The notes beneath the pieces were generated by a model, which did no database searches, had not been told where the DNA came from, and saw only the letters and a list, made by a program, of their open reading frames with translations. Positions 15,894-35,468 of a DNA stretch of 64,000 bases are shown piece by piece. This DNA is from Amycolatopsis jiangsuensis. GTDB taxonomy: Bacteria > Actinomycetota > Actinomycetes > Mycobacteriales > Pseudonocardiaceae. Both the position numbers and the translations under genes were made by a program. The first letter of the stretch is position 1; each line of letters begins with the position of its first letter. The stretch lies in assembly GCF_014204865.1 (NCBI RefSeq), contig NZ_JACHMG010000001.1, positions 5,916,501 to 5,980,500 on the forward strand. Direction: 5' to 3'.

Positions 15894-16859
15894 TTACGGC
15901 TGGTTTTCCACGGGCAACATGGCCTGTACGTCGAGCCGGTTCGGGATCTGCCCGGAGCTGTGCATCAGGTCGGCCACGCGTTGCAGCCGCGTCGCCGACA
16001 GCGTGGTCGGGTAGCTGCCGAGAGAGATCAATGCCGCAGTGGTCGCGTCGATGTCGGAGAACGACGGCAGTGCGTCGCGGACCGTGGCCGGGTCCGCCGC
16101 GGCGAGCTGGGCCTGGGTGAGCACGCGGCGGAAAGCGGCGAGCGTACGCGGGTTCGCCGCCGCGAAGGCGCCGGTCGCCGCGTAGCCGGAGGCCGGGAAA
16201 TCGAGCGTCGCCCCGCTCGATCCGTCGGCAAGGATCTGCGCGCCCAGCTCCTTCTCCGCCTGGGTGATGAAGGGTTCCACCATCACCGCCGCGTCCGCTC
16301 CGCCGGACTGCAGGACCTCCGGCATCTGCGAGAACGGGCTCGCCTGCAGGCGGACCTTGGCCGGGTCGACGCCCGCGGTGGCGAGCACCGAGCGGGCGGT
16401 CAGCGCGCCGACGTCGTCCGTGCGGTCGACCGCGATCTTCGGGGACTTCTTCGAGGTGGGCTCGCGGTAGTCCGAGCCGGGGAGCGTGACGAGGGCGATC
16501 GTGTTGTCGCCCGAGGTGTAGGCCTCGCCCTGCAGCTGGAGTGCGGTGCCCGCCGCGGCAGCGCGGAACAGTGAGACGTCGCTGGCGAACGTGACGTCGA
16601 CCCTGCCCGAGGTCAGCTTGGCCACGCCGTCGTCGGTGCCGAGGTCGACCAGTTCGACGTTCAGGCCGGCCTCCCGGAACTTCCCGGAGGCGGCTGCGAT
16701 CCGTAACGGCGCGGTGTCTATCGGAGTGGCTACCCCGACGCGCAAGGTAGTCCGTTCGGGCGGAGGTGGTTGCGGACTGTCAGCAGACTGGAACAGCCCG
16801 CAGCCCGTGCTCGCGAAGAGCAGCGCGACCAGCGCGAACGCCGGACCGATCACCTTCAT
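15894..16859 (-). CDS. NitT/TauT-type ABC substrate-binding lipoprotein, orphan
   Basis: The 321-residue protein has a lipoprotein signal (hydrophobic stretch ending FASTGC) and an NMT1/SsuA-like periplasmic binding fold: TLRVGVATPIDTAPLRIAA, then KLTSGRVDVTFASDVS and MVEPFITQAEKELG. Its C-terminus (TRLQRVADLMHSSGQIP) is clearly paralogous to the binding protein at 30744-31769. Unlike that one, it has no permease or ATPase beside it. It is divergent from a NIT-domain kinase across 197 bp holding a perfect palindrome. It may deliver a ligand to a shared transporter or act as a sensory subunit of the kinase; that is inference. Confidence 0.88.
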   Translation of the reverse strand: MKVIGPAFALVALLFASTGCGLFQSADSPQPPPPERTTLRVGVATPIDTAPLRIAAASGKFREAGLNVELVDLGTDDGVAKLTSGRVDVTFASDVSLFRAAAAGTALQLQGEAYTSGDNTIALVTLPGSDYREPTSKKSPKIAVDRTDDVGALTARSVLATAGVDPAKVRLQASPFSQMPEVLQSGGADAAVMVEPFITQAEKELGAQILADGSSGATLDFPASGYAATGAFAAANPRTLAAFRRVLTQAQLAAADPATVRDALPSFSDIDATTAALISLGSYPTTLSATRLQRVADLMHSSGQIPNRLDVQAMLPVENQP

Positions 16860-16894
16860 GTGCTCTCACCTACCGGGAGAATCTTCGCCTTGTG

Positions 16895-16928
16895 CTGGAT
16901 CGTATGGGCCGCTACCCATACGATCCAG
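16895..16928. promoter_or_regulatory. Perfect 14-bp inverted repeat in the divergent spacer
   Basis: CTGGATCGTATGGG (16895-16908) and CCCATACGATCCAG (16915-16928) flank six bases. The element lies 36 bp upstream of the binding-protein ATG and about 130 bp upstream of the kinase GTG. It could be an operator controlling the divergent pair or a leader hairpin of the binding-protein mRNA. Confidence 0.75.
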
Positions 16929-17056
16929 GGCAGGGCCGTACCCTCGCCAGGGTGGTTTTCCGTTCCACTCATCTGGCCTACTCGTCAGTAGGGTCGCGGT
17001 CGGACACCCTCGATGACGTCCGTGGGTAGGGGTCTCACGGTGAAAAGGAAGCACAG

Positions 17057-19936
17057 GTGATCCGTCGCGACGAGCGTCCCCGATCGGGCGACGCGACGGA
17101 GCCCGCTGTGCGGCGGGTCGGCGGCCGGTGGCGGCTGCGCAACTGGCACCTGCGCACCAAGCTCTTCGCCGTCCTGCTGATCCCCGCGCTCGCCGTGGTC
17201 GTGCTGGTCGGCCTGCGGATCACCAGCGATCTGGGGGACGCGCAGCAGCTCGCCGAGTTCGCCTCGCGCAGCCGGGTCGACGCGACGGTGGCCGAAATGG
17301 TGCACCAGCTGCAGCGGGAACGCGACGTCACGGTGCGGTTCGTGGCCGGCGGCCGGAAGGGCCCGACGACCGGTCTCAAAGCCCAGCGCACCCGGGTGGA
17401 CCAGGCGATCGGCACGTTCCAGAAGACCTTCTCCGACAGTGCGCCCCGGCTCGACACCACCGCCGCGGGCAGTCTGCAGCAGAGCGACGACCGGCTCGGC
17501 GTGCTCGGCGGCCTGCGTTACTCCGCCGAGCATTCCGCCTTCCCGGCCGACGCCGTGCTCCGCTCCTACAGCGAGCTGATCTCCGGTCTGCTCGACATCA
17601 GTGACACTGCGGCGGCGGACGTCTCGAACGGGGGGCTGGCGCGGCTGCGCCTGGCCGGCAACGCGCTGGCCCGGATCAAGGACCAGATGTCGGTCAAGCG
17701 GGCGGTCATGTCCGAGGCACTGGCCCAGGGCACGCTCAGCCGGGACCGCACCCGTTCGCTGCTCGGCGCCGAGGCGGAGCTGGCCGCCGCCCGCAACGAC
17801 TACCGCACCTTCGCCACCCCCGACCAGCAGCGGATGTACGACGACACGGTGATCGGGCTCGTCGTGGACATCGGCAACGACATGGTCGAATCGGCGCTGG
17901 TCCAGGCGGAGAACGACGAGTCGCTGTCCGGGCTCGACCCGGACCGCTGGGACACCGCGTCGACCTACACGGTCAACCTGGCCCACCAGGTGCAGCAGGC
18001 GCTGCTCGTCCAGCTGCAGCAGGAGACCGACACGCTCGCCGCCCGCGCCCGCACGTCGACGATCTGGGACGGCGGCGTCGTGCTGGCCGTGCTGCTGGTC
18101 GCCGGGGTGCTGTCGGTGATCATCGCGCGTTCGCTGCTGCGGCCGCTGCGCGTGCTGCGGCGCACCGCGCTCGACGTGGCCGACCATCGGCTGCCGGAAG
18201 CCGTGCAGCGGCTGCTCACCGAGCCCGACCCCGGACCGGAGAACCTGCGCCACCGTGCCGCGGTCGCGCCGGTGCCGGTCTTCACGCGCGAAGAAGTCGG
18301 CCAGGTCGCGCGCGCGTTCGACGCGGTGCACGGTGAGGCGGTGCGGCTGGCCGCGGAACAGGCGATGCTGCGCGAGAACGTCAACGCGATGTTCGTGAAC
18401 CTCTCGCAGCGCAGCCAGGATCTCGTCGAACGGCAGCTGTCGGTGCTCGACCGGATGGAAGCCGGTGAGCAGGATCCGGACACGCTCGCCGGCCTGTTCG
18501 AGCTGGACCACCTTGCCACCCGGATGCGGCGCAACAGCGAGAACCTGCTCGTGCTTTCCGGTACCGACCTCGTGCGTGAGGACTCCGGACCGGTCGTCGC
18601 GGACGAGATCATCGGCGCGGCACTGTCCGAAGTGGAGGATTACCAGCGGATCGAACTGGGCCCGGCGCCCGCGCTGGCGGTACGTGGCGAGGTGGTCAAC
18701 GACCTCGTGCACGTGGTGTCCGAACTGCTGGAGAACGCCACCCGTTACTCCGGCGAGGCGACCCCGGTCACCGTCGAGAGCGAGTGGACCGCCGAGCGCG
18801 CGTGGCGGATCGAGATCACCGACCGTGGTGCGGGCATGCCGCAGGCGGAGATCGACCGCACCAACCAGCGGCTGGGCGATCCGCCGGAGGTCGACGTCGA
18901 GGTGTCCCGGCGGATGGGCCTGTACGTGGTGGCGACTCTGGCGCTCCGGCACGACATCCGGGTTTCGCTGCGCCCGGGTGGGGGTGCCGGGCTGACCGCG
19001 GCCGTGCTCGTGCCTGCCGCGCTGATCGTCGAAGCACCCCCACTGCCGCAGCCGGCCGAACCGGAACCCGCGCCGGAGCCGGAGCTGCTCGCCCCGCTCA
19101 TCCCGGTCGAGCCGGAAGAGCCCGGCGCCCTGCTCACCCCGGTGCTGGAGCAAGGCCCGCCGCGGCGGGCACCGGTCGTCGAGAACGTCCCGCAGTGGCC
19201 ACCGGCGCAGGAGGAGCGGTCTCACCTGGACCTCGACGCGCCGACCGACCGGATGCCCGCCTACCGCGACGTGCTGTCGCGCTGGTTCGACTCCGCCGCG
19301 CCGGAGGGGGAGCCGCCCGCGCCGCCGGAACCGCGCGTGGTGGCGCCGGAACTGCTGGCCGAACAGCAGGAGCCGAAGTCGTTGCCGGAGCCGCAGTGGG
19401 TACCCGCGGTGGCGGTGCCGCCGGAGTTGCCGCCGGAGCCTGCGGCGGAGTTGCCGCCGGAAATGGTGCCGCAGGAGCCGCTGCCGCCGGGACCGTTGCC
19501 GCCGGAGCCCGAGTCCGTGCCGGAACCGCTGCGTGAGTCGGGGCCGCCGTCAGAAACGTTGTCAGAGCCGGTGTTCGAGGCGTTCCGCGATCCGGGGGTG
19601 GTGCCGGAGAACGAACCGCCGCCGTGGCCGCCGGTGGCGCCCGAACCGGCTGACGTGGCGTTCCCCACTGTGGATCCGGACGGGCCGGCCGACGGGCCGG
19701 CGCCGGCGTCGCTGCCGCTGTGGCCGACGCCGGATGAGCTGGAGCAGGAGGACGGCGCCGAGGACACCTGGCCGTTCCTGCGCGTCGCCGAGGTGGTGGA
19801 CCCCGGGCAGGTGCCCGAGCAGCGGCCGATACTCTCGCTTTCCCCCGAAGCGGTGCGCGAGCGGATGACGAGCCTGCAAGGCGGGTTCCGGCGCGGCCGG
19901 CACTCCCGGGGGGACGACACCCCGCACTCGGATTGA
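17057..19936 (+). CDS. NIT-domain sensor histidine kinase, CvnA-like
   Basis: The 959-residue protein has a membrane segment at about 37-56, an external nitrate/nitrite-sensing (NIT) domain to about 335, a second membrane helix (338-358), a HAMP region, then helical RENVNAMFVNLSQRSQDLVE and [15 protein letters not shown] segments. A GHKL ATPase follows with N box SELLENATRYS near 555 and DRGAGMP. The last 300 residues are Pro/Glu-rich and disordered, ending in an Arg-rich tail. It is paralogous to the kinase at 32349-35468 but has no roadblock, DUF742 or GTPase gene next to it. The GTG start has GGAAG upstream. NIT domains bind nitrate in some proteins; the ligand here is unknown. Confidence 0.93.
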   Translation: MIRRDERPRSGDATEPAVRRVGGRWRLRNWHLRTKLFAVLLIPALAVVVLVGLRITSDLGDAQQLAEFASRSRVDATVAEMVHQLQRERDVTVRFVAGGRKGPTTGLKAQRTRVDQAIGTFQKTFSDSAPRLDTTAAGSLQQSDDRLGVLGGLRYSAEHSAFPADAVLRSYSELISGLLDISDTAAADVSNGGLARLRLAGNALARIKDQMSVKRAVMSEALAQGTLSRDRTRSLLGAEAELAAARNDYRTFATPDQQRMYDDTVIGLVVDIGNDMVESALVQAENDESLSGLDPDRWDTASTYTVNLAHQVQQALLVQLQQETDTLAARARTSTIWDGGVVLAVLLVAGVLSVIIARSLLRPLRVLRRTALDVADHRLPEAVQRLLTEPDPGPENLRHRAAVAPVPVFTREEVGQVARAFDAVHGEAVRLAAEQAMLRENVNAMFVNLSQRSQDLVERQLSVLDRMEAGEQDPDTLAGLFELDHLATRMRRNSENLLVLSGTDLVREDSGPVVADEIIGAALSEVEDYQRIELGPAPALAVRGEVVNDLVHVVSELLENATRYSGEATPVTVESEWTAERAWRIEITDRGAGMPQAEIDRTNQRLGDPPEVDVEVSRRMGLYVVATLALRHDIRVSLRPGGGAGLTAAVLVPAALIVEAPPLPQPAEPEPAPEPELLAPLIPVEPEEPGALLTPVLEQGPPRRAPVVENVPQWPPAQEERSHLDLDAPTDRMPAYRDVLSRWFDSAAPEGEPPAPPEPRVVAPELLAEQQEPKSLPEPQWVPAVAVPPELPPEPAAELPPEMVPQEPLPPGPLPPEPESVPEPLRESGPPSETLSEPVFEAFRDPGVVPENEPPPWPPVAPEPADVAFPTVDPDGPADGPAPASLPLWPTPDELEQEDGAEDTWPFLRVAEVVDPGQVPEQRPILSLSPEAVRERMTSLQGGFRRGRHSRGDDTPHSD

Positions 19937-19947
19937 ACGGAAGACCG

Positions 19948-20625
19948 ATGAGCTCGACGACCGCCCTGCTGGAAGTGATCGCGCTGAGCGCCGAGGACGC
20001 GGAGCGCGCGCAGGAGGGCGGCGCGGACCGGCTCGAACTGGTCGCGGACATGGCTTCCGACGGCCTCACCCCGTCCGTGGAGACGGTGCGCGCTGTGCTC
20101 GCGGCCACCGACCTGCCGGTCCGCGTGATGCTCCGCGCGGAGAACTCGTTCGCTGCCGGGGACATCGACGCGCTGCGGGCCATCGTGGCCGGGCTGCTCG
20201 ACGCCGGCGCCCGTGAGTTCGTGTTCGGCTTCCTGACCGAGGATTCCGAGGTCGACGTGGACGCCTGTCGCGTGCTGCTGAAGGAGATCGACGGGCAGCC
20301 GTGGACGTTCCATCGCGCCATCGACCGAGCCCTGGACCCACTCGCCGCGTGCGGCGTGCTGGCCGAACTGGGCTGCGACACGGTGCTCGCCGCGGGGCAT
20401 CCGAACGGCGTCGGCAGCGGTCTGCCGGTGTTGCAGCAGCTCGCCAGGCGCGCAGCCGGACCGGAGCTGCTGGTCGGTGGCGGGCTGCGTGCGCAACAGG
20501 TCCACTTGCTGCGCGCCGGTGGGGTGCGCGGGTTCCACGTGGGGGGCGCGGTGCGTCCGGACGGCTGGGAAGCGCCGGTCGACGCGGCCGCGGTGCGGGA
20601 GTGGGCCGAGCTGGTCAAGGGCTGA
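19948..20625 (+). CDS. cutC: CutC family protein
   Basis: The 225-residue TIM-barrel protein shows CutC signatures: LLEVIALSAEDAERAQEGGA near the N-terminus, then GADRLELV, a FHRAIDRA segment and a C-terminal GGGLRAQQVHLL followed by FHVGGAVR. CutC has been linked to copper handling, but its biochemical activity is disputed. The ATG at 19948 is 11 bases after the kinase stop with GGAAG between, so it is probably cotranscribed with the kinase. A hairpin with a T run follows the stop. Confidence 0.9.
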   Translation: MSSTTALLEVIALSAEDAERAQEGGADRLELVADMASDGLTPSVETVRAVLAATDLPVRVMLRAENSFAAGDIDALRAIVAGLLDAGAREFVFGFLTEDSEVDVDACRVLLKEIDGQPWTFHRAIDRALDPLAACGVLAELGCDTVLAAGHPNGVGSGLPVLQQLARRAAGPELLVGGGLRAQQVHLLRAGGVRGFHVGGAVRPDGWEAPVDAAAVREWAELVKG

Positions 20626-20644
20626 AACCCCGCGTCACCCCGAA

Positions 20645-20670
20645 TTCCCGGGATCCGGGAACGGGTTTTT
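20645..20670 (+). terminator. Terminator after cutC
   Basis: TTCCCGG and CCGGGAA pair around a GAT loop (20645-20661), followed by CGGGTTTTT. This is a compact intrinsic terminator 20 bases after the cutC stop. Confidence 0.7.
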
Positions 20671-20912
20671 CTCCCGGAGGACCGGATTGTCCGCATATTT
20701 CCGTTCCGGCCCACCGGGGTAGCCGGGCGAATCGGGACGACCTCGCCTAAAACGGCCGGAAATTGCCGTGGTGAAACAAAAACCAACCACTCCGAAGGTC
20801 AGCCAAAAGTAGGTTCCTCCGGTCCGGACGGTTTCTTATGCTCGGCGAAACAGGGTCGAGCTCCGGGTCCGCCGGGAGTGTTTCGACCCGGTCCCCCATG
20901 GAAGGAATCGCC

Positions 20913-22556
20913 ATGCGCATGCGCAAGCTCGTCGCCGCGGCCGTCCCGCTGCCGGCGTTGCTGTGCCTTTCGCTGACCGGTGTGGCCAACGCCGATCCGC
21001 TGATTTCCTTGTCCGGCAATGACGCGCCGCTCGTCGCCAGTGCACGCAGTGGCGATGTCGACGGTGCCAGGCAGATCACCGCCGCGTTGTCGTTGAAGCT
21101 GCACAACCAGCAAGCGCTGCGGCAGTTCCTCGCGGACGTGCAGAATCCGGCCTCGCCGAACTACCACCACTTCCTCACCCCGCAGCAGTTCACTACTGCA
21201 TTCGGCCCAACCCAGGCCGAGGCGGATCAGGCGGTCGAATTCCTGAAAGACAATGGCGCCACCGGGATCACGGTTTCCGGTAACCGTCAGGCGGTCACCT
21301 TCTCCGGTACCGCGGCCCAGCTGGAATCCGCGTTCCACACCGGGATCGGGAATTACCTCGACACGGTCACCGGCCGCACCTTCTTCGCCAACGACTCCGC
21401 TCCGGCGCTGCCGAAGTCGGTGGCGTCGGTGGTCGACTCCGTGGTCGGGCTCGACAACCACGCGGTCCAGCAGCACTCCACAACCGAACAGGCCCCGCAC
21501 GCGGCCAAAGCGGTGACCCCGGACATCCTCAAGAAGGCGTACGGCACCGGCGATCTCTCGGCCACCGGTGCCGGGGTGAGCGTGGGTTTCGTCGAGTTCG
21601 ACGGGTACGACAAGTCGGACATCACGGCCTACGACTCGAAGTACGGCCTCAAGGGCGGCTCGGTGACCACCGTACCGGTCAACGGCACGAGCTACGACGA
21701 CAGCCCGGGTCAGGGGGAGACCGAGGTCGACCTGGACGTCGAGGTCGTGCACGCGGTGGCCGCCGCGGCGGACTCCTACGTGTACGAGGCGGAGAACTCC
21801 AGCGCCGGCGAGCTGGCGATGTACCAGCAGATCGCGTCGGACAAGAAGGTCTCGGTGGTCTCCATCTCGTGGGGTGCTTGCGAAGCGGCGGAGGGTGCTT
21901 CGGCGGCCAACAGCGTGGACAAGGCGATCGCCACCGGCACCGCGGAGGGCATCAGCTACTTCGCCGCCGCGGGCGACGACGGCACCACCGACTGCGCTCG
22001 CCAGAACGGCTCGAAGGACAAGGCGGTCGACTTCCCCGCGTCCAGCCCGAATGTCTCGGGCGTCGGCGGCACGCAGCTGTCGGTGGACTCGTCGAACGGC
22101 TACGACGGTGAGGTCGCGTGGAACGACGGCGCCTCCGGTGGCGCCGGCGGTGGTGGCACGTCCACGATCTTCGACGCGCCGTCCTGGCAGGGCAAGCAGA
22201 GCACGACCAAGCGCGAGGTTCCGGACGTTTCGGCGGACGCCGCGCAGGGCTCGGCCTACACCATCGTTTCCGGTGGCCAGACCGGCAACGTGTGGGGCAC
22301 CTCGGGTGCGGCTCCGCTGTGGGCGGGCTTCACCGTGCTGCAGAACGAGGTCAGCGGGGGCCCGCTGGGCAACCTGAACCCGAAGTTCTACGACATCGGC
22401 AACGGCGCGCAGTACGGCAGCGGCTTCAACGACGTGACCGAGGGCAACAACGACTTCAACGGCACGACCGGCTTCAGCGCCGGAACCGGCTACGACCAGG
22501 TCACCGGCTGGGGTTCGTTCAAGGGCGCCGGGCTCTCCGGTCTGCTCGGCAGCTGA
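20913..22556 (+). CDS. Secreted S53 (sedolisin/kumamolisin) peptidase
   Basis: The 547-residue precursor has a signal peptide (MRMRKLVAAAVPL to about VANA), a pro-kumamolisin activation domain to about residue 210 and an S53 catalytic domain. The triad residues are seen as E271 and D275 in ETEVDLD, and S464 in GTSGAAPLW; the oxyanion Asp is in AAAGDDG (D355/D356). A C-terminal calcium site is suggested by NDVTEGNNDFN and GYDQVTGWGS. Sedolisins are serine-carboxyl proteases usually active at acid pH. Earlier in-frame starts exist, but the ATG at 20913 has GAAGGA ahead and begins the signal peptide. It is monocistronic. Confidence 0.95.
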   Translation: MRMRKLVAAAVPLPALLCLSLTGVANADPLISLSGNDAPLVASARSGDVDGARQITAALSLKLHNQQALRQFLADVQNPASPNYHHFLTPQQFTTAFGPTQAEADQAVEFLKDNGATGITVSGNRQAVTFSGTAAQLESAFHTGIGNYLDTVTGRTFFANDSAPALPKSVASVVDSVVGLDNHAVQQHSTTEQAPHAAKAVTPDILKKAYGTGDLSATGAGVSVGFVEFDGYDKSDITAYDSKYGLKGGSVTTVPVNGTSYDDSPGQGETEVDLDVEVVHAVAAAADSYVYEAENSSAGELAMYQQIASDKKVSVVSISWGACEAAEGASAANSVDKAIATGTAEGISYFAAAGDDGTTDCARQNGSKDKAVDFPASSPNVSGVGGTQLSVDSSNGYDGEVAWNDGASGGAGGGGTSTIFDAPSWQGKQSTTKREVPDVSADAAQGSAYTIVSGGQTGNVWGTSGAAPLWAGFTVLQNEVSGGPLGNLNPKFYDIGNGAQYGSGFNDVTEGNNDFNGTTGFSAGTGYDQVTGWGSFKGAGLSGLLGS

Positions 22557-22564
22557 CCCGCTCG

Positions 22565-22607
22565 CTCCCGCGTGCGTGCCTGCCCAGCGCGGACACGCAC
22601 GCGGGAG
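22565..22607. terminator. Bidirectional terminator between convergent genes
   Basis: CTCCCGCGTGCGTG (22565-22578) pairs with CACGCACGCGGGAG (22594-22607) around a 15-base loop. It fills the entire gap between the S53 peptidase stop and the EspG stop. Confidence 0.8.
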
Positions 22608-23273
22608 TCATCCGAGCCGGTCCCGGGCCGCTTCCAACGCGGCTGCGACATCCGTGCGATCCGCCGGTGCGAGGGTGGCTTCGGCTCCGGACCCGGTCAG
22701 GAGCCAACGTCCCTCCGGGGTGTCGCAGACGCGCAGCGGTGCGCTGCACAGGTGGTGGCCGTCCGGCGCGCGGGACTCGACGTACAGTTCGGCCACCATG
22801 ACCGGCGGAGCGTCGAAGAGGCCGGGCCTGAACGGTCGCGGCTCGCCGATCGCTTCGGCGCCGGCTGGCAGGACGTCGGCCAGCACTCGCGCGAGATTGG
22901 TCTCGCGGAAGGTGCGGACGAAGATCTCGTCCTCGTCGCGTACGGCGATGACGCGGAACCACCGGTTGCCGGAGACGAGCACGCCCAGCCGCACGTCGCG
23001 GACCGTGTCCGCGAACCAGCCGAACCGGGCTTCCGGCGGCCGGGTCAGCAGCGCGGTCAGGTCGGCCAGCTCGGGTTCGTCGGCGTCGAACGGAGGTATG
23101 CCGTGCCGGAGCACCAGCTCCCGGACCGCCAGCTCGGCGTGCCGGGACTCCTGCGAGTCCCGCCAGACCGGCTGCGGAGCCAGCACCGGATGCAGTTCGC
23201 CGCCGGTGAGGGTGGTGACCAGATCGGCCAGCTCGGTGTCCCGGAAGACCGCGGGCCGGGCGAACCACACCAT
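22608..23273 (-). CDS. EspG-family ESX chaperone (cassette 1)
   Basis: The 221-residue protein matches the EspG family of cytosolic chaperones that hold PE/PPE-type substrates for ESX (type VII) secretion. The recognisable parts are LADLVTTLTGGELHPVLAP near the start, a NRWFRVIAVRDEDEIFVRTF core with an ETNLARVLADVLP helix, and a C-terminal ALEAARDRLG helix. Its ATG overlaps the stop of the upstream PPE-like gene as TGATG, indicating translational coupling. The reading frame continues upstream only because of the frameshift in that gene. It is the last gene of a four-gene minus-strand operon and ends at a bidirectional terminator. Confidence 0.82.
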   Translation of the reverse strand: MVWFARPAVFRDTELADLVTTLTGGELHPVLAPQPVWRDSQESRHAELAVRELVLRHGIPPFDADEPELADLTALLTRPPEARFGWFADTVRDVRLGVLVSGNRWFRVIAVRDEDEIFVRTFRETNLARVLADVLPAGAEAIGEPRPFRPGLFDAPPVMVAELYVESRAPDGHHLCSAPLRVCDTPEGRWLLTGSGAEATLAPADRTDVAAALEAARDRLG

Positions 23274-24548: not shown

Positions 24549-24551
24549 GGT

Positions 24552-25853: not shown

Positions 25854-27443
25854 ATGGGTACTCGCACTGTCCGGGACGCCACTCGCGAGCTGTTGCGGAA
25901 CCTCGGTCTCACCACGGTGTTCGGTAACCCGGGCACCACCGAGATCGCGTTCCTCACCGAGTGGCCCGACGATTTCCACTACGTGCTCGGGCTGCAGGAG
26001 TCGGCCGTCGTCGCGATGGCCGACGGCTACGCGCAGGCGACCCGCCGGCCGGTGCTGGTGAACCTGCACTCCGCGGGTGGGGTCGGGCATTCGCTCGGGC
26101 ACGTGTTCACCGCCTACCGCAACCGGACCCCGCTCATCGTGCTGGCCGGTCAGCAGACCCGGTCCCTGTTGCCCGACGAGCCCTTCCTCGGCGCGGTGGA
26201 AGCGGCGAACTTCCCCAAGCCGTACGTGAAGTGGAGCGTCGAACCGGCAAGGGCGCAGGACGTGCCCGCCGCCATCGCGCACGCCCACCACGTGGCCACG
26301 CAGGCGCCGCAGGGCCCGGTGTTCGTCTCGGTGCCGGTCGACGACTGGGACGCCGAGGCGACGATGCCGCTGCCGGCCGGGCACCGGGTGCCCGGTTTCG
26401 CGCCCGACCCGGACGCGCTGGCCGAACTGGTGACCGCGCTGGACGAGGCGCGGCGGCCCGCGCTGGTGGTCGGCGCGAGCGTCGACCAGGACGGCGCGGT
26501 GCCCGATGTCGTTGCCCTGGCGGAGAAACTCGGCGCCGGAGTGTGGGCGGCGCCGATGTCCGCGCGGTGCTCGTTCCCGGAGGACCACGAGCTGTTCCTC
26601 GGTTTCCTGCAGCCGGAACGGATCGCCGTCGCGGAAGCACTGCGGGACCACGACCTCGTGGTGGTGCTCGGCGCGCCGGCGTTCACCTACCACGTCTACC
26701 GAGGTGAGCCGGACCGCGCGCTCCCGCCGCTGTACCTGGTGAGCGACGACGAGCAGGTGCTGGCGCGGGCGGGCGAGGGCACCGGGATCCGGTCGACGCC
26801 GGGGCACGCCGTCCGGGCGCTGACCGAGCGGGTCGCGGTCGGCGAGCGGACCGCGACCGGCAGGCCCGCGCCAGCGGATGCACCCGCCGAAACCACGCCG
26901 ATCTCCCCGGCGTTCGCCTACTCTGTGGTCGCGGAACTGTTGCCGGAGAACGGGATCGTGGTCGAGGAGACGCCGAGTCACCGGAACGTGCTGCACGAGC
27001 AGCTGCCGATCACCGCCACCGACACCGGCTTCCTCACTGTCGCCAGCGGAACCCTCGGTTACGGCCTGCCCGCGGCGGTCGGCGCGGCGCTCGGCCGGCC
27101 CGACCGCAAGGTGGTCGCCGTGCTCGGCGATGGTTCCAGCATGTACTGCGTGCAGGCGCTCTGGACGGCCGCGCAGCAGCACGTGCCGGTGACCTTCGTG
27201 GTGCTGGACAACGAGCAGTACGCCGCGGTCCGCATCCTCGGCGAGACAGCCGGCGGCCGGAAGGTTCCGGGCACCGCCCTCGGCGGGATCGACTTCACGA
27301 CGCTGGCGCAGAGCATGGGCTGCTCGGCGAGGACGGTCAAGGAGGCCGCGGAACTGCGTCCGGCGCTGGCCGCCGCGCTGGCCGAGGAGGGCCCGAGCCT
27401 GGTGCACGTGAAGGTGGATCCGAACCCGCAGACCTTGTACTGA
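25854..27443 (+). CDS. mdlC: Benzoylformate decarboxylase (ThDP enzyme)
   Basis: The 529-residue protein has the three-domain ThDP decarboxylase layout. Residues typical of benzoylformate decarboxylase are present: E49 in LGLQES, H72 in VNLHSAGG, H280 in TYHVY and the ThDP motif starting GDGSSMYC. The active-site serine of the Pseudomonas enzyme (its S26) is replaced by T28 in NPGTTE. The reaction would be phenylglyoxylate to benzaldehyde and CO2. No mandelate racemase, mandelate dehydrogenase or benzaldehyde dehydrogenase is near, so it is not in a classic mandelate operon and the true substrate may be another 2-oxo acid. A hairpin lies downstream. Confidence 0.85.
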   Translation: MGTRTVRDATRELLRNLGLTTVFGNPGTTEIAFLTEWPDDFHYVLGLQESAVVAMADGYAQATRRPVLVNLHSAGGVGHSLGHVFTAYRNRTPLIVLAGQQTRSLLPDEPFLGAVEAANFPKPYVKWSVEPARAQDVPAAIAHAHHVATQAPQGPVFVSVPVDDWDAEATMPLPAGHRVPGFAPDPDALAELVTALDEARRPALVVGASVDQDGAVPDVVALAEKLGAGVWAAPMSARCSFPEDHELFLGFLQPERIAVAEALRDHDLVVVLGAPAFTYHVYRGEPDRALPPLYLVSDDEQVLARAGEGTGIRSTPGHAVRALTERVAVGERTATGRPAPADAPAETTPISPAFAYSVVAELLPENGIVVEETPSHRNVLHEQLPITATDTGFLTVASGTLGYGLPAAVGAALGRPDRKVVAVLGDGSSMYCVQALWTAAQQHVPVTFVVLDNEQYAAVRILGETAGGRKVPGTALGGIDFTTLAQSMGCSARTVKEAAELRPALAAALAEEGPSLVHVKVDPNPQTLY

Positions 27444-27465
27444 GCATCTGGCGAACGGGTGATTC

Positions 27466-27490
27466 CGGCGGTGAAACGTGATCACCGCCG
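27466..27490 (+). terminator. Possible terminator after mdlC
   Basis: CGGCGGTG (27466-27473) pairs with CACCGCCG (27483-27490) around 9 bases. There is no T run, as is usual in high-GC actinomycetes. It lies 22 bases after the stop. Confidence 0.5.
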
Positions 27491-27541
27491 CCTTCCCGGA
27501 CTACGGTGACCGCTTCGACCACGGTGTCCGGGGAGGGACCA

Positions 27542-28276: not shown

Positions 28277-29125
28277 TCAGCGTTTCGCGTTCTCCACAGT
28301 GGACGAAGCGGCCTTCTCCGCGGCTTCCCATTCGGCCGCGTCCGCCGCCGCGGTCACGGCGGGCCCGTGCAGCAGCCGCGCCACCTCGCCGCGCAGGGAC
28401 ACGAACTGCGGGGACTCGCGGGTGGTGATCTGGTCACGCTGGGCGGGCAGGTCCACCGGCAGGTCCGCGACGATGTGCGCCGGCGACTTCGACAGCACCA
28501 GCACCCGGTCGCCCAGGTAGACGCTCTCGTCGATGTCGTGCGTGACGAGCAGCACCGTGGTGCCCTGTTCGGTCTGCACGCGGCGGAGCAGGTCCTCCAG
28601 ATCGAACCGGGTCTGGGCGTCCACCGAGGCGAACGGTTCGTCCATCAGCAGGAGCGCGGGACGACTCGCCAGTGCGCGGGCGATGGACACCCGCTGCTGC
28701 ATACCGCCGGAGAGCTGCCACGGGAACTTCCCCTCGACGCCGGCCAGCCCGACCGCCGACAGCGCTTCGCGGGCCCTGTCGCGCCGGGTCGCCTTGTCGA
28801 GTTTGCTCCAGCGCAACGGGAACTCGACGTTCTTGCCCACAGTCAGCCACGGGAACAGCGAACGGCTGTAGTCCTGGAACACCACCGCGAGGTCGTCCGG
28901 CACGCCGGTCACCCGGTCACCGTGCAGGCTCACCGTGCCCGCGGTCGGTGGGAGCAGCCCGGCGATCGCGCGCAGCAGCGTCGATTTGCCGCAGCCGGAC
29001 GGCCCGACGATGCAGGCGAGTTGCCCGGCTTCCACGGTGAACGACAGCTCGTCCACCGCCACGTGCGCGGTGTCGCCGGTGCCGTAGCGGTGGCCAACCC
29101 CGGAGACCTCGAGCATGGTCGACAT
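28277..29125 (-). CDS. ABC transporter ATPase, NitT/TauT/SsuB type
   Basis: The 282-residue ATPase has Walker A GPSGCGKST, the signature LSGGMQQR, Walker B LLLMDEPFASVD and a switch His in LVTHDIDES, as in the nitrate/sulfonate/taurine importer subfamily. A C-terminal extension of about 40 residues is Ala/Glu-rich. The ATG at 29125 with GGAAGG upstream is preferred; the longer frame upstream is not ABC-like. It is the last gene of a four-gene operon (binding protein, permease, permease, ATPase) and would power import of the ligand bound by the 30744-31769 protein. Confidence 0.93.
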   Translation of the reverse strand: MSTMLEVSGVGHRYGTGDTAHVAVDELSFTVEAGQLACIVGPSGCGKSTLLRAIAGLLPPTAGTVSLHGDRVTGVPDDLAVVFQDYSRSLFPWLTVGKNVEFPLRWSKLDKATRRDRAREALSAVGLAGVEGKFPWQLSGGMQQRVSIARALASRPALLLMDEPFASVDAQTRFDLEDLLRRVQTEQGTTVLLVTHDIDESVYLGDRVLVLSKSPAHIVADLPVDLPAQRDQITTRESPQFVSLRGEVARLLHGPAVTAAADAAEWEAAEKAASSTVENAKR

Positions 29126-29147
29126 CAGAAAACCTTCCGAAGAGGTG

Positions 29148-29978
29148 CTAGTTCCGGCCGGGCTGCCACCCGAGCACTCGCCGCTCGACGGCGAGGAGGG
29201 CGGCGTTGAACCCGTATCCGAGGATGCCCAGCAGCACGACCCACGCCCACATCTGGTCGTAGTCGAAGGCCCGCTGGGCGGCTGACAGTGCGTAGCCGAT
29301 GCCGTTGAGCGCACCGACCAGCTCGGAGATCGCCATCAGGATCAGCGCGATGGACAGCGACAACCGCAGCCCGGCGAAGATCTTCGGCAGTGCCGCGGGC
29401 AGCACCACCATCCCGATCCAGTAGCGACGCGGAGTGCGGAACGCACGCGCGGTCTCCACCTTCACCTTGTCCACCGAGCGCACACCGTCCACTGTGTTCA
29501 GCAGCACCGGCCACAGTGAACCGAAGATGATCGTGGCGATCTGCATGCCCGGTCCGATGTGGAACAACACGATGAACACCGGTACCAGCGCGGGCGGTGG
29601 AATGGCGCGGAAGAACGCGAACAGCGGGCCCACGTAGTCCATCCCGGTACGCGAGCGGCCGAGTGCAGTGCCGAGCGCGATACCCACCACCACCGAGAGC
29701 AGCCACCCGCCGAGCACCCTGGCGAGGCTGGGCAGGACGTGCTCGAACACCGCGTCACCGAGGAACAGCTGCGAACCGGGGCCGGAGAACCACAGCTTCA
29801 CCGCGGCCGTCGCGATCTTGCTCGGCGGCGGGAAGAACACGCTCTCACTCAGCCGGGTCGCGAGCTCCCACAGCAGCACGAGCACCACGAACAACAGCCA
29901 TTTGCGGGCGAACCCGCTGATCCCGCGGCTCACCCGGCCGCGCAAGCGTGCCGGGACGGGCCTTTCCAGCACACTCAC
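29148..29978 (-). CDS. ABC transporter permease, BPD type (second permease)
   Basis: The 276-residue integral membrane protein has about six helices and the inner-membrane-component motif that contacts the ATPase: VETARAFRTPRRYWIGMVVLP. It opens VSVLERPVPARL and its GTG overlaps the stop of the upstream permease gene by GTGA, showing tight coupling. With the adjacent permease it probably forms a heterodimer. Typical SsuC-like segments such as FRAIPPPALVPVFI are present. The substrate cannot be read from the sequence: nitrate, sulfonate, taurine or thiamine precursors are all transported by this subfamily. Confidence 0.9.
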   Translation of the reverse strand: MSVLERPVPARLRGRVSRGISGFARKWLLFVVLVLLWELATRLSESVFFPPPSKIATAAVKLWFSGPGSQLFLGDAVFEHVLPSLARVLGGWLLSVVVGIALGTALGRSRTGMDYVGPLFAFFRAIPPPALVPVFIVLFHIGPGMQIATIIFGSLWPVLLNTVDGVRSVDKVKVETARAFRTPRRYWIGMVVLPAALPKIFAGLRLSLSIALILMAISELVGALNGIGYALSAAQRAFDYDQMWAWVVLLGILGYGFNAALLAVERRVLGWQPGRN

Positions 29979-30742
29979 GCGGTGGCTCCTTCGTCGGCCT
30001 CGTTCCAGCGGAACAGCCTGCGGCCCAGCCGTTCCAGCCCCTCGTTGACGATGAAGCCCAGCAGTCCCGCGACGACGGTGCCCGCCAGTACCAGGTCCAT
30101 CCGTCCGCTGACGGAGCTGGCCTCCAGCACGAACTGCCCGATGCCGAGTTTCGCGCCTGCCAGGAACTCGGTGCTGATCACCAGGATCAACGAGATCGCC
30201 GCGGCCATCCGGATGCCGGTGAACACGAACGGCGCCGAGTGCGGCAGAACCACCGAACTGAGGATCCGCGATCGCGGGGTGCCGTAGCTGCGGGCGGTCT
30301 CGACGAGCAGCGGGTCGACCTCGGCCATCGCGTAGATGGTGTTGAACAGGATCGGCCACACCGAGGCGTACACCGCGAGGAAGATCTTCGCCTCGGGGCC
30401 GCCGCCGATCACGATCAGGACGAGCGGGATCAGCGCCACCGAAGGAATCGGCCGCAGGAACTCGACGATCGCCTTGGTCGCCTCGCGCAGCCAGCGCACG
30501 CTGCCCAGCAGCAGCCCGGCCGGTACCGCGATGGCGATCGAGATCGCCATCGCGATCAACCAGGCCAGCGCCGAGGCCACCACGTCGCGGACGAACTCGA
30601 CGTCACCGAGCAGCTGGCCGATCCGCGCGAACACCACGGTCGGCGGCGGCAGATCGGTCTGATCGACCCAGCCGGCCCGCACGATCGCCTCCCAGATGAG
30701 CAGGAAACCGAGCAGGCCGGTCAGATTGCGGACAACACGCAC
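29975..30742 (-). CDS. ABC transporter permease, BPD type (first permease)
   Basis: The 255-residue protein has the same SsuC/TauC-type topology, including FLRPIPSVALIPLVL and the ATPase-contact loop VETARSYGTPRSRILSSVVLP. The GTG at 30742 is one base after the stop of the binding-protein gene. It is more distant from its neighbour permease than expected of a recent tandem copy, supporting a heterodimeric channel. It is the second gene of the importer operon. Confidence 0.9.
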   Translation of the reverse strand: MRVVRNLTGLLGFLLIWEAIVRAGWVDQTDLPPPTVVFARIGQLLGDVEFVRDVVASALAWLIAMAISIAIAVPAGLLLGSVRWLREATKAIVEFLRPIPSVALIPLVLIVIGGGPEAKIFLAVYASVWPILFNTIYAMAEVDPLLVETARSYGTPRSRILSSVVLPHSAPFVFTGIRMAAAISLILVISTEFLAGAKLGIGQFVLEASSVSGRMDLVLAGTVVAGLLGFIVNEGLERLGRRLFRWNEADEGATA

Positions 30743-30743
30743 G

Positions 30744-31769
30744 TCAGGATGCGTTCGCCTGCGGGACGATCATCGTGGCCACGTCGATCTTGGCCGGGAT
30801 CGAGCCGAACTGCTGCATCAGGTCCGGAACCCGCTGGATCCGCCGGGCGTCCAAAGTGGACTGGAAGGTGAGCAGCTTGGTCAGTGAGGCGATGTCCTGG
30901 TCGACCTTCGAGAACTTGACCAGCAGCGGCTCGATCTTCGAGCGGTCAGCGGCGTCCTTGGTGGCCTTCGCCATCGCACGCTGGAACGCGGCGACGGTCT
31001 TCGGGCTGCCGGAGGTGAACTTGCCGAGCGACCCGTAGCCCGCGGTCGGGAAGTCCTTCGTGCCGCCGGTCGCGGTGTCGATGATCTCCACCGTGCCGTC
31101 GTCCTTGGCCGACTGCGTGATGAACGGCTCGGTGAGGAAGCCCGCGTCCACGTCGCCACGCTTCACCGCGGCGCCGATCTGCGGGAAGCCGATGGGCACC
31201 CACTTCACGCCGGTGAAGTCCACGCCGTTGTCGCGCATCACGGACTTGGTCAGGGTGTCGCAGATGGTGTCGGTCGCGGTGATCGCGATCTTCTTGCCCG
31301 CCAGGTCGTGCACGTTCTTCACCGTGCTGTTCGGCATCGCCACGATCTCGGTGCTCTTCGGCCCGGCCGAAGAGGCGTCGGCGACGAACTTGATGTCGGC
31401 GTTGCTCTTGCTCTTGGCGACGAAGAACGGCGTGTAGCTGCCGTAGGCGATGTCGACCTCACCGGAGAGCAACTTCTGAAGCGAGGCCGCGCCGCTGGCC
31501 GCGTTGACCGCCTCGACGTCGAGGCCTTCCTGCTGGAAGTAGCCGTTCTGCACCGCGAGGTGGAACGGGGCCACGTCGATCGTCGGCATGATGGAGACCT
31601 TGATCTTCGCCTTCTCCAGGCCGGATCCGCCGCTCGTGCTGCCCGAGTCATCCGAACCGCCGAGCAGGCCGCAGCCGCTCGCGGTCAGCGCGACGCCGCT
31701 CGCCATGGCGAGGGACAGGAAACCGCGCCTGCCGTATCTACGCTGGTTGCTCGCGGCTGCTTCAAACAA
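30744..31769 (-). CDS. NitT/TauT-type substrate-binding lipoprotein, possibly Tat-exported
   Basis: The 341-residue precursor starts at a TTG with AGGAG seven bases ahead. Its signal has a twin-arginine segment (YGRRGFLSLAMASG) and a lipobox (LTASGC), suggesting Tat export and lipid anchoring. The mature part is an NMT1/SsuA-like fold: ASGAASLQKLLSGEVDIAYGS, FVADASSAGPKSTEIVA and LTEPFITQSAKDDG. It heads the importer operon with two permeases and an ATPase. It is paralogous to the orphan binding protein at 15894-16859 and, like it, is divergent from a NIT-domain kinase. The ligand is unknown. Confidence 0.93.
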   Translation of the reverse strand: MFEAAASNQRRYGRRGFLSLAMASGVALTASGCGLLGGSDDSGSTSGGSGLEKAKIKVSIMPTIDVAPFHLAVQNGYFQQEGLDVEAVNAASGAASLQKLLSGEVDIAYGSYTPFFVAKSKSNADIKFVADASSAGPKSTEIVAMPNSTVKNVHDLAGKKIAITATDTICDTLTKSVMRDNGVDFTGVKWVPIGFPQIGAAVKRGDVDAGFLTEPFITQSAKDDGTVEIIDTATGGTKDFPTAGYGSLGKFTSGSPKTVAAFQRAMAKATKDAADRSKIEPLLVKFSKVDQDIASLTKLLTFQSTLDARRIQRVPDLMQQFGSIPAKIDVATMIVPQANAS

Positions 31770-32348
31770 GGTCGCTCCTATGCGGATGAGGTCACGCCTG
31801 GGGTACCAGATGTGTGGGTGGAGGTATGTGGCTCATCGTCCGGAGTCACGCGGCTACTGTAGAGAACCACCCTCGTTACTCACAATGGGTGGTCAGTAAC
31901 GGTTCAGAGGTGGTTCGCGTCACTCGATCAGGTGAGCGATTGTGCTGCTGTGGCGCGTCGTGCGGACAAGCCGTGGATGCCTGAATGCCTTGATCCGCTG
32001 CCCGGGTACACCTGGGCCGACATCTGGAGGGTTACAAATGCGCCAAGCGTTCGCTACCCTCTGCTCCTGCAAGTGAGGTGTGGACCACCGATGTAGTGAG
32101 CGGCAGCCTTGTGAAGAGGTACTCCGCGCACGCCGGCGCGAAGCCGGTCAAGGGTGGCCTCGGCCGAATGGACCAGCGACCGACCACGTGCGGGGACCGA
32201 ACGTCATGCCAGAGCTGAACCGATTCCGCACCCGGGGTGACGGGAAACCGCACCTGAAAGTCGATCTTTTCACCCGTAAGGGTGTAATGACCTGGTCAGT
32301 GGCCTGGACCATGGCGGGTCCGGGCCTGCTGCCGGAGGCGTGCGGGGA
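31770..32348. promoter_or_regulatory. Divergent regulatory spacer between importer and conservon
   Basis: No gene is supported in these 580 bp. Near the importer side two interleaved inverted repeats are visible: ACCACCC/GGGTGGT (31866-31872, 31887-31893) and CGTTACT/AGTAACG (31874-31880, 31895-31901). Near the kinase side, CACCC-GTAA-GGGTG (32271-32284) forms a hairpin with a GNRA-type loop about 65 bases before the kinase start. These are candidates for operators or leader structures; no promoter hexamers were secure. Confidence 0.5.
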
Positions 32349-35300
32349 GTGACCGCGGGCACGGCAGGTTTCGAAGCACAGGGTCCCTCGGGCCCGGACG
32401 ACGATGGTGGTGCGGCGGTGCCGAACGAAGACGCCGCGGGGGCGGGAGGGGCCCCTGCGCGAGAGAGCGGATCGAGCGGACGACGCTCCTTCTTCGCGCT
32501 GGGCAACTGGCGGCTCCGGTCGAAGCTCGCCCTCATCCTGATCATCCCGACGCTCACCGCGCTGGTGCTCGGTGTGCTGCGCGTGGTCGACGACGTACGG
32601 GAGGCCGCGCAGCTGGGACGGACCGCCGACCAGGTCGCGTTCGCGCAGAAGGTGACCGGCGTGGTGCACGACCTGGAAGGGGAGCGGGCGCTGGCGGTGG
32701 CCCGGATCGCCTCCGGTGACCCACTGCGCCAGGCCGGCCTCGACGCGCAGGTGGCCAAGGTCGACCGCGGGGTGGACGACCTGCGGGACGCGGCGGTCAA
32801 CCTGCACACCGACGACCAGGCCACCAGCGACCGCTACGCCCGCGGCCTGCAGCGGCTGGACGCGCTGCGCCCGCTGCGCGCGGCGATCGGCTCCTCCTCT
32901 TATTCCGACCTCGCCGCGCTGGACACCTATTCGTCCATTCTCGACTCGCTGGTGCAGCTGGGCCGCGAGGTGACCACCGCGACCAGTGACCGTGACCTGC
33001 TCCGGCTCGGCACGAGCACGCAGTCGATCAGCGAGGCCAAGGAATTCATCCTGCGCGGGGACAGCGCACTGCAGATCTCCGCGTTCCGCAACAGCTTCCC
33101 CGGCAGCCTGCTCGACGAGACCCGCGCCGCGGAGGCGAGCGGGGACGCCTCGATCTCGGTGTTCCTCGCCAACGCCACCGACGACCAGGTCCAGCTGTAC
33201 AACGACACCTACTCCGGTCCGGAGGTCGACGACCGGCGCCGGATCGAGACGTCCGCGTTCTCGGTCGCCCAGCAGACCCAGAACCAGGCGCTCAACATCG
33301 ACCCCACGCGGTTGAGCCAGGACTCCACGATCGCCTCGGACAAGCTCCGCGCGGTCGAGAGCAACCTGCTGACCCAGCTGCGCGCGCAGGCGGACAGCCT
33401 CGCCGGCACGGCGGTGCGCTCCGCCTGGATCGGGGGCGTGGTCGTGCTCGCCGCCCTGATCGCGGCCCTGATCCTGATGCTCGCGATCGCCCGGTTGATG
33501 CTGCGCCCGCTGCGGGTGCTGCGGCGCACCGCGCTCGACGTGGCCTACACCCGGCTGCCCGAGACCGTGCAGTCGATCCTGGACGATCCGGATCCGGTCA
33601 ACGCCTCGAAGAAGGCGGTGGACCCGGTGCCGGTCGCCTCCCGCGACGAGATCGGCGAGGTGGCGCGCTCGTTCGACGTGGTGCACGAACAGGCCGTGAA
33701 GATGGCCGCGGAACAGGCACTGCTGCGCGAGAACGTCAACGGCATCTTCGTGAACCTCTCCCGGCGTTCGCAGCGGCTGGTGGAACGCCAGCTCGGCGTG
33801 ATCGACCGGCTCGAGGCCGACGAGCAGGACCCGGACCACCTGGCGAGCCTGTTCGAACTGGACCACCTGGCCACCCGGCTGCGGCGCAACGGTGAATCGC
33901 TGCTGGTGCTGTCCGGCGCCGGACTCGCGAAGTCGGTGCCGAAGCCGGTGCCCGCCGCCGACGTGATCGGTGCCGCGGTGTCCGAAATCGAGCAGTACGC
34001 CCGGATCGAGGTCGGCGCCGTCCCCGAGGTCGCGGTGCAGGGCCTGGCGATCCACGACCTGGTGCACGTGCTGGCTGAGCTGCTGGACAACGCGACCTAC
34101 TTCTCCGAGCCGGAGACGAAGATCACCGTACGGGCCGTGGTGACCCGCAAGAAGGCGCTCGCCGTCCAGGTCACCGACCACGGTGTCGGCATGAGCGAGG
34201 ACCGGCTCGCCGAGATCAACTCCCGGCTGGCCGATCCGCCGGACCTGGACGTGTCGGTGACCCGGCGGATGGGTCTGTACGTGGTCGCCCGGCTGGCCCA
34301 GCGGCACGGTATCGAGGTGCGGCTGCGGGAGAACGAGGACATCGAGGGCGGCGTGATCGCCCGCGTGGTGGTCCCCGCCGAACTGCTCACCGAACTCCGG
34401 ATCGCCGCCCCGGTGCCGTCGGCGCCGCGGCACACCCCGCCGCCGCCGAACCGCAACGAGGTGTCGCACCCGAGCTTCCCGCCGGTCAACCGGGAACCGG
34501 AACCGGCGCCGGAGCCCCCCGCGGTGCCTGCCCAGTCGGTCGGCGGCCTGGTGCCGCTCGACCAGCCGATCAGCCTCGACGACCTGGTCGCGGGCAACCG
34601 GGCGGCCGGACCGTTCCTGAGCCCGGAGACCCCGGCCGCGGAGGCGCCGGCGTGGCCGACGGCCGAGGACCTGGCCCCGCTCACCCGGGACTCCAACGGC
34701 GACGGGGCGAGCATGGCCGAAACCCAGTTCGCGCCGCTGGTTCTGCCGAAGCGCGAACCGAAGTACGTGGCACCGGAGGAGCCGAAGGCCCCCGAACCGG
34801 CCGCCGACGACGGCGCGTCCGCGCTCGAGGACGAAGTGCCGACCCGGCGGCTCCCGATCTACCAGTCGGTACTCTCCCGCTGGTTCAGTGAGGGCAGTGA
34901 AGCCGGGGAAGGCGGGGACGAGGGCGAACCCGGTCCTGTTCCCACCACCGGCGACGAGACGGCGGCAGCGGCGGAACCCGCCGGACCGGCCGCCCCGCGC
35001 GAACCGGTCGCGCCGGCCGAACCGGCCGGCGCGCGCGAGGAGGAGCCGATCGAAGCGACGCCGCTCTACCCCGGTCCGGAGGGCCCGGGCGACGAAGGCT
35101 GGCACAGTGCCTCGGACGAGGGCTGGCAGGCTGCCCAGTCGCTGCTCGAGTCGAAGAACGAGGAAGTGACGTCGGCCGGGCTGCCCAAGCGCATCCCGAA
35201 CGCGTACCTGGTCCCCGGGTCGATCACCCCTTCCCAGGCGCAGGCCGAACCGCAGAACTCGTTCACCGACGAGACCGCCGGACTGCCCGGAACGGGTGCT

Positions 35301-35468
35301 ATCACCCGCTCGGCGACAGCGGCACGCAGCCGGATGGCAAGCTTCCAGCGTGGGTACACCTCCGGACGGCACGCATTGAAGGAACGGCCGGCGGAGGCCC
35401 GGCTCGAGGACGAGGTGCGAGTCACCGGGGCCGGGTACGTGAGCGACAGCAGTGAGGAGCGACAGTGA
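32349..35468 (+). CDS. cvnA: NIT-domain sensor histidine kinase, CvnA of the conservon
   Basis: The 1039-residue protein has a hydrophilic N-terminus, membrane helix (about 60-80), external NIT domain, second helix (361-382), HAMP, the conserved [20 protein letters not shown] and [15 protein letters not shown] helices, and a GHKL ATPase with [11 protein letters not shown] near 573 and DHGVGMS. About 350 disordered residues end in an Arg-rich tail. In Streptomyces, CvnA forms a membrane complex with CvnB, CvnC and the GTPase CvnD that is compared to eukaryotic GPCR systems. GTG at 32349 is chosen; another GTG lies at 32340. The stop overlaps cvnB by GTGA. It faces an ABC binding-protein gene, its likely functional partner. 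Confidence 0.93.

Follow-up and report, generated by a model that had tools for sequence, protein, structure and literature searches.

The window analysed here is a 64,000-nucleotide stretch of the 8.05 Mb genome of Amycolatopsis jiangsuensis (all coordinates are window positions). It contains two gene pairs in which a solute-binding lipoprotein gene on the minus strand is divergent from the gene of a CvnA-type NIT-domain kinase on the plus strand. An earlier, sequence-only reading of this DNA had pointed out both pairs, and open reading frames (ORFs) and Pfam matches agree with it. In copy 1, the SsuA/NMT1-type lipoprotein BP1 (15894..16859, minus; Pfam NMT1_2/NMT1), which has no importer adjoining it, faces KIN1 (17057..19936, plus; NIT at 147.8 bits, HATPase_c, HAMP-like), whose tail carries no LPxR motif; CutC follows downstream of KIN1. 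In copy 2, the lipoprotein BP2 (30744..31769, minus, start codon uncertain; Pfam NMT1) adjoins the genes of an ATP-binding cassette (ABC) importer, namely permease A (29975..30742, minus; BPD_transp_1), permease B (29148..29930, minus, start approximate, ORF to 30359; BPD_transp_1) and an ATPase (28277..29131, minus, start approximate, ORF to 29314; ABC_tran). These four genes are divergent from KIN2 (32340..35468, plus; NIT at 116 bits, HATPase_c, tail motif LPKR within GLPKRIP), the roadblock/LC7 protein CvnB (35465..35941, plus; Robl_LC7), CvnC (35968..36738, plus, start uncertain; DUF742) and the small GTPase CvnD (ORF 36620..37324, plus, true start probably about 36698; ATP_bind_1/PF03029).

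Copy 2 thus shows the gene order of a conservon on the plus strand (HATPase_c/NIT, Robl_LC7, DUF742, PF03029), and copy 1 has no adjoining CvnB, CvnC and CvnD. The sequence-only reading had described an importer and a conservon in one copy and neither in the other, which is correct locally but leaves out a second cvnB-cvnC set (37689-39136) behind CvnD. This set consists of a second roadblock protein, CvnB2 (37689..38162, plus; Robl_LC7), and CvnC2 (ORF 38054..39136, plus, true start probably about 38159; DUF742), with no GTPase gene after it. HATPase_c scores above the cut-off in KIN1 and KIN2 alike, and the Pfam HAMP match is slightly below it in both. BP1 and BP2 share 33% identity over 305 positions, KIN1 and KIN2 40% over 807 positions. 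The whole genome has 5 NIT and 7 NMT1 matches, among which BP1/KIN1 and BP2/KIN2 are the sole NIT/NMT1 neighbours by coordinates.

Both lipoproteins match Pfam NMT1 above the cut-off, and their structure models have mean predicted local distance difference test (pLDDT) values of 92.2 (BP1) and 89.0 (BP2). The BP1 model shows a type II binding-protein fold; its best folds in the PDB are SsuA 3ksj (E 8.3e-17), 2x26 and 3ksx, and it also resembles PqqT, a hydroxymethylpyrimidine (HMP)-precursor-binding protein and the regulatory domain of CmpBCD. The lipobox cysteine of BP1 (Cys20) is invariant in A3, and a lipobox-like motif, by a loose pattern, occurs within the first 110 residues of all 89 collected lipoproteins. 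A common C-terminal motif had been taken as a mark of the two binding proteins; E. coli SsuA aligns through the same region, and the motif does not set them apart.

Conservation and co-inheritance of the pair

We surveyed 38 Pseudonocardiaceae genomes from 37 genera. A divergent lipoprotein of this subfamily lies within 2.5 kb of 43 of the 142 NIT domains, and these cases are spread over 35 of the 38 genomes. This survey rules out a chance neighbourhood of lipoprotein and NIT kinase. The linkage of the two genes, a trait of receptors activated by solute-binding proteins, exceeds what chance would give.

For the lipoproteins we used a profile (A1) built from 24 of them, which is biased towards kinase-adjoining proteins because its rows come mostly from loci picked for their gene neighbourhood. 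Its scores separate clearly, with nothing between 293.8 and 230.5 bits, and 75 proteins from 35 genomes score above this break. Of these, 46 lie upstream of a NIT domain in divergent orientation within 3.5 kb and another 4 do so at 3.5-10 kb; 5 are upstream on its own strand, 1 is downstream, and for the remaining 19 no NIT domain occurs within 10 kb. The same-strand arrangement occurs in five genomes, and in one case (G016, locus L146) the stop codon of the lipoprotein gene overlaps the start codon of the kinase gene in a GTGA.

In a class-wide draw, the lipoprotein subfamily was present at E <= 1e-60 in 11 of 148 genomes, including the window's own, and is therefore not universal. Eleven stretches were fetched from nine of the other ten genomes. 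Six of them combine the pair with a conservon, either with importer genes present (L131-L135, family f18) or with no permease adjoining (L136, family f9); three have the importer without a kinase (L137, L139, L140) and two have neither (L138, L141). Of 51 lipoproteins examined in family f18, where contigs are short, at least 24 face a divergent NIT domain no farther off than 3.5 kb, and 20 show none within 10 kb among the matches listed. The matches listed for KIN1 (120 of 7176 relatives) include no fused lipoprotein-kinase protein; their precomputed Pfam domains comprise NIT and HATPase types, with HAMP added in a few.

Co-inheritance was analysed in 52 sources (the window and 51 loci), where a lipoprotein lies upstream of 65 of 75 kinases. 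Among the 58 Pseudonocardiaceae pairs, best-match labels give 17 KIN1-BP1, 41 KIN2-BP2 and no mixed pair; these labels are best matches and not tree groups, and L112 is labelled KIN1-BP1 with its lipoprotein on the BP2 side of the tree. Five mixed labels in the 52-source set carry little meaning because they come from outgroup loci. The distance matrices of lipoproteins and kinases correlate with r = 0.80 (58 pairs), which is partly due to shared descent. In the 13 two-kinase loci r was 0.98, and none of 2000 within-locus lipoprotein swaps gave a value as high. With one or the other of the flanking helicase proteins as a species proxy, the partial correlation was 0.78 (28 pairs) and 0.89 (39 pairs). 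In quick trees, with support from the Shimodaira-Hasegawa-like approximate likelihood ratio test (SH-aLRT) only, a BP1 clade (support 99, 16 rows) agrees with a KIN1 clade (support 98, 22 rows); the two trees conflict at deep nodes.

Importers and the neighbours of other NIT kinases

To compare the two associations of the lipoprotein, permease A served as a third marker, with limits of 3.6 kb for a NIT domain and 3.0 kb for the permease. Among the 75 lipoproteins, 27 have both neighbours, 26 only NIT, 6 only the permease and 16 neither, which amounts to a NIT domain near 53 and permease A near 33. The lipoprotein is thus at least as closely associated with the kinase as with the importer. For the 26 NIT-only lipoproteins, the permease lies at 3.5-7.5 kb in 9 cases, at 13 kb for the window's BP1, and in 16 cases it is absent from the contig or megabases off (none within 15 kb). 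In the co-directional cases it lies at 3.5-4.3 kb in three and at 5.6 kb in a fourth.

Nine genomes with lipoprotein-kinase neighbours (G003, G005, G006, G016, G017, G018, G028, G029, G036) have no permease A match of at least 220 bits anywhere, permease B and the ATPase not having been searched. Weaker permease A matches (120-166 bits) occur in G003, G016, G018 and G028, and the remaining five have none at E <= 1e-30. The pairs in these genomes may use an unspecific importer, because of these weaker matches, because G028 is only 86% complete and because permease B and the ATPase were outside the search.

As a control, we used the DNA upstream of the 94 NIT domains that have no lipoprotein of this subfamily there; 92 of them had a usable nearest ORF. 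Among the Pfam matches listed, these ORFs fall into DUF485 (14), SSF (9), MoCoBD (6), XPB (5), an ornithine-decarboxylase type (4) and ABC_tran (4); the matches listed cover 25 of 75 families and may hide single cases of other binding proteins. BP1 and BP2 as queries gave no match at E 1e-5 in the control upstream stretches. Having this lipoprotein as a partner is therefore specific to some NIT kinases; a position opposite an uptake or catabolic gene is not so restricted.

Taken together, 23 of the 92 upstream ORFs are DUF485 or SSF symporter genes, one of them in the window's own genome (L187, G000:C1:2681902), and they constitute a second transport link of conservons. The SSF cluster of nine comprises L164, L172, L174, L187, L199, L205, L208, L223 and L237, and the DUF485 cluster of 14 includes L158, L165, L166 and L169. 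At L015, L024 and L028, NIT kinases face nitrite-reductase-like (Pyr_redox_2) or molybdopterin oxidoreductase genes, as expected of true nitrate/nitrite sensors. One case of another binding protein comes from G008, where a gene for a Ser/Thr kinase domain joined to SBP_bac_3 (L151:1367-3148) precedes a NIT kinase gene on the same strand.

Locus history and the LPxR motif

The two pairs lie within a recurring order: XPB helicase, BP1, KIN1, (thiamine pyrophosphate (TPP) enzyme), importer, BP2, KIN2, B, C, D, B2, C2 and Helicase_C_3. In the window, the left landmark is an XPB/ERCC3-type helicase (13551..15197, minus), the right landmark a Helicase_C_3 protein (39717..41957, minus), and the TPP enzyme is of the benzoylformate decarboxylase type (25854..27443, plus; NCBIfam NF005485 at 674 bits, cut-off 493). 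The XPB gene is present in all 19 fetched two-kinase loci and Helicase_C_3 in 13 of 19, with stretches ending at 20 kb; the TPP enzyme occurs in 17 of 40 fetched loci. The two helicase genes that flank the locus may be former neighbours. An Imm5-like immunity protein (39151-39660) adjoins the conservon. Upstream of BP1, 36 bp ahead of its start codon, lies an inverted repeat (16895-16928) of two perfect 14-bp arms around a 6-bp loop, a possible operator or hairpin; as a shared operator it was rejected, with a single copy in the genome and none in the intergenic stretches of six relatives examined.

One-kinase loci (e.g., L109, L110 and L112) have the order BP-KIN-B-C-(D) beside one or both helicase landmarks. 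In the CvnB tree, read without a fixed root, the CvnB of one-kinase loci clusters with the CvnB2 found where there are two kinases. The first CvnB of those two-kinase loci makes up a separate branch (21 rows, support 99), and its union with CvnB from the outgroup families is less well supported (29 rows, 83). The simplest reading, held tentatively, is that the importer-BP2-KIN2-B-C-D unit lies between KIN1 and its own former B2-C2. CvnB2-CvnC2 are probably former or present partners of KIN1, and they would stand at the far end because that unit lies between. Side-by-side duplicated conservons with one GTPase gene lost are known from passages of PMC4316618, which also describe a conserved LPxR motif in CvnA tails.

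This motif separates the two kinases. In two-kinase loci it is present in 21 of 21 KIN2 vs 1 of 20 KIN1 (one further kinase was too short and left out); the KIN1 of L082 keeps it. In the other loci, 27 of 27 KIN2-type and five of six KIN1-type kinases carry it, and the sixth, in L110, has neither the motif nor an adjoining CvnD. Because L110 groups with KIN1 in the tree, the motif was probably lost once and not many times. The pattern suggests that KIN1 no longer acts directly on a GTPase. The sequence-only reading had proposed that the lipoprotein may feed small-GTPase signalling through the kinase, and for copy 1 a direct feed is improbable since KIN1 has no LPxR tail motif and no GTPase gene adjoins it.

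A proposed ligand-loaded co-sensor and its alternatives

We consider it moderately likely that the lipoprotein is a ligand-loaded co-sensor, or antenna, of the NIT kinase that it faces. That the two form a conserved unit is supported by their neighbourhood in 35 of 38 genomes, by the co-inheritance of the two paralogous pairs, by lipoproteins retained next to kinases in nine genomes that have no close permease A relative, and by the GTGA overlap in G016. Each pair would then be a solute-binding-protein-coupled receptor: the membrane-anchored outer lipoprotein would bind a small solute, and docking of the loaded form on the CvnA kinase opposite, at its extracytoplasmic NIT domain, would alter kinase activity. 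The order of domains places the NIT domain, by prediction, outside the membrane, where the lipoprotein is too. As to nitrate sensing, the KIN1 NIT region gives no more than a weak alignment with NasR 4akk (E 0.024). Copy 2 would represent the complete form, with BP2 serving both the ABC importer and KIN2, and KIN2 acting on CvnB-CvnC-CvnD, the last a Ras-like GTPase. Copy 1 would be a paralogous pair turned dedicated sensor, with no importer beside BP1 and with a KIN1 devoid of LPxR and of its own GTPase gene; it may signal via CvnB2/CvnC2 or via KIN2.

Several observations weigh against a co-sensor. NIT kinases adjoining XPB have no lipoprotein in G002, G004, G014, G033 and G037, three of which lack a lipoprotein of the subfamily altogether. 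Since these five kinases at the XPB landmark have none, the kinase can dispense with the lipoprotein in some lineages. Conversely, 22 of the 75 lipoproteins lie more than 3.6 kb from any NIT domain, and five of the 11 class-wide stretches (L137-L141) have no kinase. KIN1 has no BP1 next to it in L073-L075, L081, L092 and L101. In L083 and L100, BP2 stands away from KIN2, and L131 and L135 each have one further kinase without a lipoprotein. In the trees, the kinases of L088, L093-L096, L100, L111 and L112 group with KIN1 (support 95) and their lipoproteins with the BP2 side. For KIN2 pairs alone, the partial correlation beyond species distance is modest (0.40 and 0.33). The presumed cleft loops of BP1, roughly guessed with DSSP, are not preferentially conserved (32 rows, mostly near relatives, p = 0.65). 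Finally, the clusters of 14, 9, 6 and 5 control ORFs, equated with Pfam families by their equal counts, are all divergent from the NIT kinase.

This last point is also the best evidence for the strongest rival, in which a regulator simply faces its target: the NIT domain would sense the solute directly, the conservon would control the divergent uptake operon, and the lipoprotein would merely be its first gene. Other NIT kinases are likewise divergent from uptake or catabolic genes (14 DUF485, 9 SSF and 6 MoCoBD of 92), the nitrite-reductase-like and molybdopterin genes of L015, L028 and L024 fit the same scheme, and permease A lies within 3 kb of 27 of the 53 NIT-linked lipoproteins. However, a permease within 3 kb is lacking for the other 26 of these 53, nine genomes have no close permease A relative, and a target operon does not explain the co-directional genes in five genomes, one with the GTGA overlap. 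We regard this rival as unlikely, if serious.

BP1 could instead be an ordinary transport lipoprotein for the BP2 importer or a distant one, with the neighbourhood of KIN1 left over from the duplication. In the two-kinase genomes surveyed permease A does lie 4-13 kb from BP1, and BP1-family source names, among the matches listed, are transport names. We find this improbable given that BP1-type proteins persist in G036 (L110) without a close permease A relative, and that BP1 lies less than 200 bp from KIN1 in all 14 two-kinase pairs (gaps of -36 to 198), though it is lost in six such loci. An old, vertically inherited synteny with no functional link is more improbable still: the XPB gene in 19 of 19 fetched two-kinase loci shows that the place is inherited, and the KIN2-BP2 correlation is largely common with species distance, but the pairs recur in other layouts and families (operon form in five genomes, f18, f9), and the genes of the importer and the TPP enzyme are present at some loci and absent from others.

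As to the ligand of such a co-sensor, the NCBIfam model SsuA_fam (TIGR01728) scores 65.8 bits with BP1 and 120.5 bits with BP2, both below its curated cut-off of 163.5, and aliphatic sulfonate is therefore not assigned as ligand. The top NCBIfam models for the importer ATPase, SaoA and a taurine type, each fall below their cut-offs. A ligand by annotation was thus rejected, the matches being only of generic sulfonate/taurine type. Rfam, searched for a riboswitch or other RNA as a hint to the ligand, gave no family at gathering score in window positions 11000-42000 or in seven relatives. In BP2, the presumed cleft loops, again roughly guessed with DSSP, are more conserved than the remainder (16 rows, p = 0.006), and the ligand of BP1 may have changed or widened. 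A scan of ten hand-picked neighbours placed FAD_binding_3 monooxygenases near lipoproteins in L097, L143, L146 and L147, and L131 gave a weaker match. Together with the benzoylformate decarboxylase-type enzyme (25854-27443), they lead us to guess at an aromatic acid as substrate.

Sensing via a binding protein is well known in general, and its link to conservons does not appear in the literature searched. LuxP-LuxQ and TorT-TorS are examples of solute-binding-protein-activated receptors. The regulatory domain of cyanobacterial CmpC/NrtC is cytoplasmic and fused to the transporter ATPase. It is similar to the lipoproteins here in that a binding-protein-like fold serves regulation (PDB 9uai, 9uak), and it differs in that there is no kinase. 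Passages of PMC9602780 describe solute-binding proteins as widely stimulating receptors. In CuaD-CuaS-CuaR, according to passages of PMC10384115, an extracytoplasmic binding protein is encoded beside the sensor kinase and CuaD is a second, sensing binding protein adjoining a transport one. In contrast, copy 2 would have a Ras-like GTPase module, including a roadblock protein, as its output instead of a response regulator, and the sensor domain is NIT. For the Streptomyces lipoproteins of CseA-CseBC and AfsQ3, passages of PMC9739842 propose that the lipoprotein modulates the kinase through its sensor domain; these systems are not conservons, and the lipoproteins are not termed solute-binding proteins in those passages.

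Copy 2 resembles the conservon, or actinobacterial G-protein system (CvnABCD, AGPS), in KIN2 with its LPxR tail and in CvnB (Robl_LC7), CvnC (DUF742) and CvnD (GTPase). It differs in the solute-binding lipoprotein beside the kinase, which is found here with or without the importer. The conservon accessories CvnE/CvnF accompany kinases without a sensory domain, as stated in passages of PMC13343842. The words "lipoprotein" and "substrate-binding" are absent from the main text of PMC13343842 and PMC8510531, and the conservon passages of PMC4316618, PMC3123327, PMC4255298, PMC3897704 and PMC3178909 contain no binding-protein link. The sequence-only reading's statement that such a link had no prior account therefore holds for the literature searched and the passages named, a body that leaves out most subscription journals.

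More broadly, we put forward tentatively, at somewhat under an even chance, that NIT-type conservons are nutrient receptors tied to particular uptake systems. One clade would use a ligand-loaded SsuA-like lipoprotein as co-receptor, a duplicated, importer- and GTPase-free BP1-KIN1-CvnB2-CvnC2 sensor branch would have split off in Amycolatopsis and relatives, and LPxR would be the GTPase-facing element of the kinase, lost along with the GTPase. KIN1 (no LPxR, no GTPase) and KIN2 (both), together with L082 and L110, offer a natural comparison for the role of this motif. The conserved lipoprotein beside the kinase offers a purifiable ligand receptor and a testable binding partner. If other NIT conservons go with other uptake systems (DUF485/SSF), their ligands would be guessable from their neighbours. 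If the co-sensor reading is true, a lipoprotein, a NIT kinase and a Ras-like GTPase would together form the bacterial equivalent of a G-protein-coupled receptor whose antenna is soluble.

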